Assembly (NCBI RefSeq): GCF_021412625.1
Contig: NZ_JAKCFI010000003.1
Coordinates: 1 to 64,000, forward strand
Origin: Myxococcus stipitatus
Lineage (GTDB): Bacteria > Myxococcota > Myxococcia > Myxococcales > Myxococcaceae
Direction of reading: 5' to 3'
Length of the DNA stretch: 64,000 bases
The notes below the pieces were generated by a model. It was given only the letters and a program-made list of their open reading frames with translations. It had not been told where the DNA came from and did not search any database. Every line of letters starts with the position of its first letter. Position 1 is the stretch's first letter. This document shows, piece after piece, positions 8,372 through 10,300 of the stretch. Both the position numbers and the translations under genes were made by a program.

Positions 8372-8893
8372 TCAGAACGGGATGTTGTCGTCGTCACCCG
8401 GCGGCGGGATGTCGTCGTCCTGGAAGCCGCCGCCGCCACGGCCGCCACCGCCGCCGTAGCCGCCACCGCCGCCGTAGCCGCCACCGCCCTCGCCCCCGCC
8501 CTCGCCCCGCTGACGCGCCATCTCCGCCTCGATGGCGGCCAGCAGCTGGCGCTCCTTGTCGTGCCAGCGCGCCTTGCTGGGGTCGTTCAGCGAGCGGCGC
8601 GCGCCGTTCGCGTAGAACTCGAGGTCCTGCATGCTCGCGCCCGCGACCGGGGCGCCCTTGCTGCGGCCATAGTTCGGGAAGACCATTCCGTCCCCGCCAC
8701 CGCCGCCACCACCGCTGGGGGCCGCGCGACGCGGGGCCGGGGCCGCCGCGTCCGGCGTGGACCCGATGGACATCTCGCCCAGCTTCAAGCTGAAGCCGTC
8801 GCCGTTCTTGAACGCCGTGCCGACTCGCACCTGCTCCACGCGCCCGTCCGGACGCCGCACCGCCACGGTGACTGGATAGCCTTGATCACTCAT
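8372..8893 (-). CDS. glycine-rich protein with SSB-like C-terminal tip
   Basis: A 173-residue protein. Residues 1-45 form a small basic/beta domain (VAVRRPDGRVEQVRVG...FKNGDGFSLKLG). A Gly tract leads to a conserved-looking helical block (YGRSKGAPVAG...DLEFYANGARRSLNDPSKARWHDKERQLLAAIEAEMARQ). A Gly/Tyr-rich linker then runs to an acidic tail ending DDDNIPF. The linker-plus-DDxIPF end is the hallmark of single-stranded DNA-binding protein, where the tip docks repair enzymes, but no OB-fold is visible. A role in DNA metabolism is inference. Linker codons include an 18-bp tandem repeat. Confidence 0.75.
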   Translation of the reverse strand: MSDQGYPVTVAVRRPDGRVEQVRVGTAFKNGDGFSLKLGEMSIGSTPDAAAPAPRRAAPSGGGGGGGDGMVFPNYGRSKGAPVAGASMQDLEFYANGARRSLNDPSKARWHDKERQLLAAIEAEMARQRGEGGGEGGGGYGGGGGYGGGGGRGGGGFQDDDIPPPGDDDNIPF

Positions 8894-9118: not shown

Positions 9119-9736
9119 TCAGTGCAACGAGAGCTGGCCGGAGCGCGCCTTCTTGCGCCCCTTGGCCTTCGCGCCGCGCGCCGACGGAGCCGCCGCCTGG
9201 CGGGCCTCCTGGAGCACCTTGCTGGCCGCGCGCCCCCGCGGGAGCTTCACGTCCTGCACCGACTGCGGCTTCGCGTCGTCCACCCACTCCGAGGGACGCC
9301 GCCCCGTGCGCATCAGGAGCCGCAGCTTCTGGTAGTGCGCCGAGCAATACCCCTTCGACCGGCTGGGGCGCTTGCAGCCGATGACCGCGCACGTGCGCGA
9401 GCCCTCGGCGCCCCGGGCCCGCACCACCGGCGCCTTCGCCGACACTCGCGCGGCGCCCAGCAGCGGCAGCTCCTCCTGCCGGGTCGCGCCCCGTCCACCC
9501 CGGCCGCGCTTCGCCGCGGGCGGCGACGACGCACCGGCCTGCTTCGCCAGGGGCGCCCGCACGCCCGCCATGGCGCCGAGCCTGCTGGTCAGCGGCGCCA
9601 GCCGGAACGTCACCGAACGCAGCATCTCCAGGGCCTCCAGGCCCTCCTCCATGCGGCGCACGGCCTCCTGAAGGGGCACGAGCTGGGTCTGCAGCTCACG
9701 CCGGAACAATTCTCCGAGCTCATTCGCGATGGACAT
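9119..9736 (-). CDS. putative zinc-binding protein with CX4C-CX2H module
   Basis: A 205-residue protein from ATG 9736. An N-terminal amphipathic helix pair (ELGELFRRELQTQLVPLQEAVRRMEEGLEALEML) could form a coiled coil. After a basic low-complexity stretch comes C-A-V-I-G-C...KGYCSAHYQK, a compact Cys2-CysHis arrangement likely to bind one zinc. The tail is Lys/Arg-rich (AKGRKKARSG), which would favour nucleic-acid binding. The family is not known to me. The frame is open far upstream, but codon use and composition look natural only from this start. Confidence 0.7.
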   Translation of the reverse strand: MSIANELGELFRRELQTQLVPLQEAVRRMEEGLEALEMLRSVTFRLAPLTSRLGAMAGVRAPLAKQAGASSPPAAKRGRGGRGATRQEELPLLGAARVSAKAPVVRARGAEGSRTCAVIGCKRPSRSKGYCSAHYQKLRLLMRTGRRPSEWVDDAKPQSVQDVKLPRGRAASKVLQEARQAAAPSARGAKAKGRKKARSGQLSLH

Positions 9737-10300
9737 GTGACGAGAGGATATACGCCCTGCCACGTCTCGAAACGGGAAATCCGCTGCATGGCACGCGCCA
9801 ACGGTCATCCCACGGGCGAATCCCCGGCGGAGCCCCCCTCCCAGGGTCGTCCTCCCCGCGTTGGACTCCGACCGCCGGGCCAGTGCCAACGACAGGGATT
9901 GAACCCTCGACGAGACGGGCTGGCGGCGGCTCAGCTCCGGACCGAGGGCGCGGAAACGGGCGCCGGTGTCTTTTCGCTCACGGAGCCCGCCGCCGGCCGC
10001 GCCGGGGGGTGCTCCGGCAGCAGCGCCGCCGCCATGGGGCAGGAGCGCAGCGCCGTGGAAAGCGCCCACAGCAACAACAGGGTTGGAACGAACGGGTGAC
10101 CCACGACGACGCCTCCAACAAGAGCCGGAATACCCACGAGAAACGCGACCCGCCGCATTTCTTGGAGGGGGAATACGCACGGGCCCGTCGGAAAGGTCTC
10201 ACCAGCACCCGGGGTGGGAGCCAGGGGCCCGCCCGGCGTCCGGGCGCACGCGGCGGCCGCGGCCCCGCCAGCGACGGGAGGGTGTTAAAGGAGGCGGGAC
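9737..10300. other. intergenic region, 564 bp
   Basis: The region lies between the Cys/His protein gene and the MoxR operon, which are divergent. Apart from the doubtful small membrane ORF at 9931-10158 on the minus strand I see no gene. An AGGAGG-type ribosome site just before 10301 belongs to the MoxR gene. A tRNA-like T-arm string near 9890 did not fold into a tRNA. Confidence 0.5.
9931..10158 (-). CDS. possible small membrane protein
   Basis: A 75-residue frame with one or two hydrophobic segments (FLVGIPALVGGVVVG and FVPTLLLLWALSTAL) and a Cys-Pro near the membrane end (RSCPMAAALL). This faintly recalls DUF2892/YgaP-like proteins, which end a helix in a similar W/R-C-P motif. The tail is Pro/Ala/Ser-rich. 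No good ribosome site precedes the ATG, so the call is weak. Confidence 0.35.
   Translation of the reverse strand: MRRVAFLVGIPALVGGVVVGHPFVPTLLLLWALSTALRSCPMAAALLPEHPPARPAAGSVSEKTPAPVSAPSVRS

Follow-up and report, generated by a model that had tools for sequence, protein, structure and literature searches.

Domain organization of the protein encoded at 8372–8893

The window analysed here is a 64,000-nucleotide stretch of the genome of Myxococcus stipitatus (contig NZ_JAKCFI010000003.1, positions 1 to 64,000). At 8372–8893 its minus strand carries an open reading frame (ORF) for a protein of 173 residues, with the C-terminal end GGGGFQDDDIPPPGDDDNIPF. The GC content of its three codon positions, 0.74, 0.58 and 0.89, is like that of a real gene in a GC-rich genome. 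The features of the gene are as follows.

8372–8893, minus strand: coding sequence, 173 aa, comprising a beta domain, a linker, a helical block, a Gly-rich linker and a tip like that of single-stranded DNA-binding protein (SSB)
8780–8881, minus strand: three-stranded beta domain, residues 5–38, predicted not to be an OB barrel (AF2 model)
8501–8689, minus strand: YGRSKG loop and two predicted helices, residues 69–131 (AF2 model; hhalign comparison with a RecT C-terminus and small prophage proteins)
8423–8500, minus strand: Gly-rich linker, predicted disordered and fast-evolving, residues 132–157 (21 of 26 residues are Gly; tail lengths vary)
8375–8422, minus strand: doubled acidic motif DDDIPPPG-DDDNIPF, residues 158–173, with the SSB-like tip last (sequence; tails of homologues)

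The AF2 model was computed from an alignment of 49 rows, which holds 49 of 70 family proteins. It places strands at residues 5–13, 19–30 and 33–38 and helices at 88–103 and 105–130, with the linkers and the tail disordered and single-residue bridges around the YGRSKG loop. The beta domain, modelled with a pLDDT of 83–92 (averaged per ten-residue block), contains the motif VTV-RPDG-VEQVRVGTA, which is conserved in the alignment. When the helical block was modelled alone from one sequence, the same two helices were obtained with a mean pLDDT of 84.8. The block carries a net charge of +2 and four basic residues that are invariant in the alignment (R77, R100, K107 and H111), while the net charge of the tail (residues 132–173) is −6. 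The doubling of the acidic motif is seen in many homologues too.

No OB barrel is present in the model. Scans of the ORF against Pfam and NCBIfam returned no match at E ≤ 1, and the 49 homologues, scanned singly against Pfam, gave chance matches only; the annealing domains of RecT (PF03837) and ERF (PF04404) were found by Pfam neither in the ORF nor in these homologues. The sole match to the SSB domain PF00436 in the 10.1-Mb genome of the same organism lies on a different contig (G000:C10:277375) and belongs to an SSB ending in GDDDIPF. An ordinary SSB paralogue is thus ruled out. The first-pass annotation had described an SSB-like tail, made of a Gly-rich linker and a DDDNIPF end, on a protein with no OB fold, a different small N-terminal domain and a conserved helical block. 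The tail is borne out by the sequence and by its conservation in homologues, and the predicted structure, with its three-stranded N-terminal sheet and two-helix block in place of an ordinary OB-fold SSB, agrees with the rest of this description.

The chromosomal neighbourhood is uninformative, and no repair genes lie beside the chromosomal family gene. Neighbours are conserved only among near relatives and, named from reading their translations, include a ketoacyl synthase-like gene, a kinase, MoxR/VWA genes and a transketolase. The upstream gene at 9119–9835 (minus strand) encodes a Cys/His-rich stretch, SRTCAVIGCKRPSRSKGYCSAHY, and is kept beside the family gene in near relatives; Pfam gives only a weak hint of a zinc finger in it.

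Distribution of the family and conservation of the tip

When 195 genomes of the phylum were searched with a profile, 98 proved to have the family gene, and the genomes listed without a match include whole families of the order. The 69 named loci come mostly from Myxococcus, Corallococcus, Pyxidicoccus, Archangium, Hyalangium and uncultured Myxococcales. The gene is mostly single-copy and retained across Myxococcaceae. In a set of 41 genomes 31 were matched, the true figure being 30, since the match in G029 (L033) is spurious; this locus was rejected as a relative, being a different reading frame without the domains. Records titled Comamonas sp. (L045) and Klebsiella pneumoniae MAG (L101) also contain the myxobacterial gene, in the case of L045 with Myxococcus neighbours, and the titles therefore look wrong.

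The tail could be read in 63 of the 69 loci; the other six contigs (L043, L051, L052, L054, L058 and L062, by title five of Corallococcus and one Myxococcaceae MAG) stop in the vicinity of the Gly-rich linker or right at it, and its repeat therefore seems to break assemblies. Fifty-nine of the 63 tails terminate in PF, and 57 have at least two acidic residues within two residues of it. Two tails with PF are looser in the acidic run beside it (L039 and L046), and four have lost PF (L089, L092, L098 and L100); some tails without PF are still acidic. The length of the tail past the block varies from 18 to 55 residues. A second set of 30 homologues, from genomes that overlap with those of the 63 tails, includes 28 with the tip. 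The two exceptions are L025, with the end SDDEAY, a loss that is genuine in its DNA, and L028, where the linker is frameshifted and the codons for DDDNIPF no longer lie in the reading frame.

The residue preceding PF may be Ile, Val, Met or Ala, with Ala (DEDAPF or DDDAPF) in 19 of the 57 strict tails, while the SSB tips conform to [DE]D[IV]PF in all 30 that were read, out of 61 SSB places. The tip of the family is accordingly held less tightly than that of SSB. The loop of the block is nearly constant, with YGR[SA][KR]G in 62 of the 63 readable members and YGRSKN in L060, so that a tip without the loop is hardly seen. The divergent relatives L208–L211 possess the beta domain and the two helices and lack both the YGRSKG loop and the tip, and L213 and L214 are alike. 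The first-pass annotation had taken homologues without the acidic tip as evidence against its reading: most homologues keep the tip, and a tipless minority does exist, made up of the four tails without PF, L025, L208–L211, L213 and L214.

The tails that could be read show strong conservation of the tip in Myxococcaceae and in a few families close to them, and the tail is under selection, with PF kept while the linker drifts. This bears on the possibility that the C-terminus is simply a disordered acidic extension, serving solubility or nucleic-acid mimicry, with no SSB receptor to bind. Such tails have a precedent in Hfq, a nucleic-acid chaperone described as autoregulated by its acidic tail (PMC5606850), and the members that lose PF yet keep the acids would fit it. 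The retention of terminal PF in 59 of 63 tails beside a drifting linker is not what a generic tail would be expected to show, the more so as the PF end matters in SSB, where F177 of the E. coli protein is reported as the terminal residue of importance (PMC11981726). This explanation is considered very unlikely.

Relation of the helical block to phage annealing proteins

Searches with the family profile and with the block alone returned weak extra matches, which were fetched as loci and compared with the block profile by hhalign, using 100 shuffles per comparison. The block scored 45.6 against the C-terminus of the RecT protein of L219 (best shuffle 14.8), 52.0 against L216 (best shuffle 14.6) and 39.8 against L220 (best shuffle 20.2). 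The first of these is a prophage RecT (8.4e-40) with the block at its C-terminus, and its gene adjoins that of a YqaJ exonuclease (8.5e-28). In L216 a small block protein is encoded behind ERF (7.9e-13) and PDDEXK_1 (1.5e-12) genes, and the small block protein of L220 adjoins PDDEXK_1 (3.9e-12). By these profile comparisons, the C-terminal domain of the prophage RecT and the small prophage proteins are homologues of the block.

The block of the L219 RecT in turn matches protein p92 of the Myxococcus phage Mx4 (E 1e-8), and the Mx4 block leads to an ERF fusion on a viral contig, L242 (ERF domain 6.5e-16), where the block is 76% identical. The direct hhalign comparison of the family block with Mx4 gave 15.1, not above the best shuffle of 20.5, and ERF and Mx4 are thus joined to the family block only through the RecT of L219. 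The RecT of L219, the ERF of L242 and Mx4 p92 share with the family a (Y/F)GxxKG loop, two helices and a PxKxRW-type motif. They differ in that they have no SSB-like tip, while the family protein lacks the RecT or ERF annealing domain. The domain with the FGxxK loop, of about 60 residues, appears as a mobile C-terminal domain of RecT, ERF and Mx4-type proteins of myxobacterial phages and prophages (L219:2978–4018, minus strand; L242:3008–4222, plus strand; L241:1694–3148, plus strand), and no Pfam model reported it in these three. Annealing proteins of different families have been described as sharing C-terminal domains, perhaps through shuffling (PMC8093625).

Other comparisons gave less. The ExoX-like C-terminal domain PF20600 has an FGKYRG loop that aligns with YGRSKG; its hhalign score against the block, 12.3, lies below the best shuffle of 16.7, a wider alignment gave P 0.0018 without a shuffle control, and hmmscan found no match to it among the 49 homologues or in any of the 41 genomes. 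The match to phrog_29425 (E 0.019–0.15) is too weak to use. A sequence search of the PDB returned low-complexity or chance matches only, and Foldseek against the PDB and viral models found none at E ≤ 0.001; a Foldseek match to E5KIM2 has 44% identity over 43 columns. The best rows of VIA-align, which cover the block only, are helical hairpins such as those of ribosomal proteins (Z ≤ 6.7, rmsd 2.4 over 56). The C-terminal domain of Redbeta and lambda Orf are not named among the PDB structure matches listed.

The Redbeta C-terminal domain and lambda Orf nevertheless invite comparison. Like the family block, theirs is a small helical domain, which in Redbeta terminates an annealing protein and binds the exonuclease and SSB (PMC8303780). 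The folds differ in that these domains are three-helix bundles and the family block is predicted to be a loop with two helices. If the block nonetheless bound SSB tips as the Redbeta domain does, the protein's own tip could fill it, resulting in autoinhibition or in a head-to-tail assembly that SSB would open. The position of the block in the annealing proteins, C-terminal just where Redbeta has its SSB-binding domain (PMC8303780), would suit this idea, as would the fact that the tipless divergent relatives L208–L211, L213 and L214 are without the YGRSKG loop as well. The difference in predicted fold speaks against it, and so do the block-bearing annealing proteins, which have no tip of their own and keep the FGxxKG loop, so that loop and tip are not strictly coupled. 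Self-binding of this kind is rated unlikely.

The same block could instead be a DNA-binding element. The protein shares with SSB a Gly-rich disordered linker followed by an acidic tip ending in PF, and it differs in having a beta sheet and a helical block in place of the OB domain and in the looser tip. Were the block or the beta domain to bind ssDNA, the whole would repeat the SSB layout of DNA-binding part, Gly linker and tip, acting as a second SSB that lacks the OB fold and presents ssDNA to SSB receptors. The invariant basic residues of the block and its occurrence in annealing proteins are in line with such a function. The net charge of the block is just +2, Redbeta is reported to bind DNA through its N-terminal and not its C-terminal domain (PMC8303780), and the tail is the sole SSB-like part of the protein, all of which makes this alternative quite improbable.

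Phage contigs with block and tip

Two IMG/VR contigs encode proteins with both the block and the tip. That of L132 is a full relative of 160 aa ending in DDSGLPF. The L133 protein has the block and a GDDDIPF end, with a different N-terminus in place of the beta domain, so a change of N-terminus need not separate block and tip. The L133 gene lies downstream of a PDDEXK exonuclease gene and, further up, of a gene for a protein that shares 33% identity over 251 aa with the Mx4 protein bearing the block. Neither contig, each of them possibly a fragment, gave a match to the SSB domain PF00436. Repeated viral scans yielded no contig besides these two, and named phages gave nothing at E 0.1 with the family block and chance pieces only at E 10 with the L133 block; plasmids searched with the block likewise gave no real match.

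The phage proteins raise the possibility that the chromosomal gene is a domesticated phage gene, the tip of which titrates host SSB receptors as a decoy. The tips DDSGLPF and DDDIPF on the two phage contigs and the existence of small prophage-like relatives would be compatible with this origin. The gene is, on the other side, mostly single-copy and kept across Myxococcaceae, and the constant retention of a decoy would presumably burden the host. A decoy function has therefore been given a low probability, comparable to that of the generic acidic tail.

Proposed role of the family

RecO and over a dozen further proteins are described as docking on the last nine residues of SSB (PMC7913777), and in a phage SSB, cooperation with the annealing protein Sak4 is reported to be driven by the last six residues (PMC5928155). 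The family joins an SSB-like docking tail to a domain of phage annealing proteins, and it probably plugs into the DNA repair machinery. We propose a myxobacterial adaptor of DNA recombination and repair, not itself an SSB, that would dock on the enzymes recognizing the SSB tip; the probability of this reading is put at about 0.45. It is supported by the anatomy of the protein, the conservation of its tip, the homology of its block and the phage block genes that accompany annealing and exonuclease genes, and also by the ssDNA-related function of SSB and XseB, the two other proteins of the genome with such an end. Against it count the absence of repair genes next to the chromosomal gene, a tip less strict than that of SSB and lost in a few members, the lack of any tip on the block-bearing annealing proteins, and the link to Mx4 that runs only through the RecT of L219. 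Its chief competitors are self-binding of the tip by the block and ssDNA binding by the protein itself.

In the proposed mechanism, the tip would occupy the pocket for the SSB tip on at least one SSB-binding enzyme, with RecO as the obvious first candidate receptor and RecQ, PriA and ExoI as guesses. The block and the small beta domain may hold another partner or DNA. The adaptor would then bring a recombination partner to enzymes normally seated on SSB or, alternatively, would hold such enzymes without coating ssDNA. The first-pass annotation had suggested recruitment of SSB-tip-binding enzymes, or competition with SSB for them; the presence of the block at the C-terminus of phage annealing proteins points more specifically to a role in recombination than to the whole range of SSB partners.

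Literature searches on SSB-tip mimics and decoys, on exonuclease VII with the SSB C-terminus and on myxobacterial SSB, covering titles and the beginnings of abstracts from few subscription journals, brought up neither this family nor a tipped XseB, the small subunit of exonuclease VII. Within the literature searched, an annealing-protein block and an SSB tip in one protein is an undescribed combination, the tip and the block each being known. What results is a family ready to be named, together with a mobile domain that connects RecT and small phage proteins and probably also ERF.

A similar tip in exonuclease VII

The 10.1-Mb genome was scanned with a DNA pattern for [DE][DE]x(1-2)PF followed by a TRR codon. 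Seven distinct places were found, three of which have the non-stop codon TGG and four a stop; the reversed pattern, used as a control, gave 2 matches per search. One of the four places ends no listed ORF of at least 60 aa, and the other three are the ends of SSB, the 8372–8893 ORF and XseB. The genome-wide scan, together with the 59 of 63 homologue tails ending in PF, led us to reject a chance origin of the tail. Both of the other proteins with such ends, SSB and XseB, act on ssDNA.

The XseB of this genome (PF02609, 4.7e-18) is encoded at C12:162575–162943 (L140:1501–1869, minus strand) and ends in EDDVPF, a tip conserved in most of its family. In a survey of 50 of the 54 XseB matches, it was kept in all 29 readable copies of one set, a thirtieth being incomplete, and in 18 of the 20 divergent copies. 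The E. coli XseB has no SSB-like tip. Like the proposed adaptor, myxobacterial XseB is a non-SSB protein with a conserved SSB-like tip, and its PF02609 domain is unrelated to the domains of the family.

The SSB tip is regarded as a hallmark of SSB proper. A broader and more tentative suggestion, which we hold to be somewhat less probable than the adaptor role, is that in myxobacteria it may serve as a portable address label: besides SSB, at least two unrelated proteins, XseB and the adaptor with its annealing-protein block, would dock directly through their own tips on the enzymes that are SSB receptors. Recombination and nuclease factors would in this way join the SSB hub as competing "SSBs", with no need to coat ssDNA. 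The SSB interaction hub would then have several inputs, and its receptors could be loaded without SSB-coated DNA.

Two small, reduced genomes, G150 and G151 (L221 and L222), account for the two divergent XseB copies without the tip; they keep the tip of SSB and lack both the XseB tip and the family gene. A co-loss of the latter two is possible, with both genomes counting as one event because they form one clade. G133 and G134 retain the XseB tip (L224 and L236), though their family relatives (L209 and L208) are tipless.
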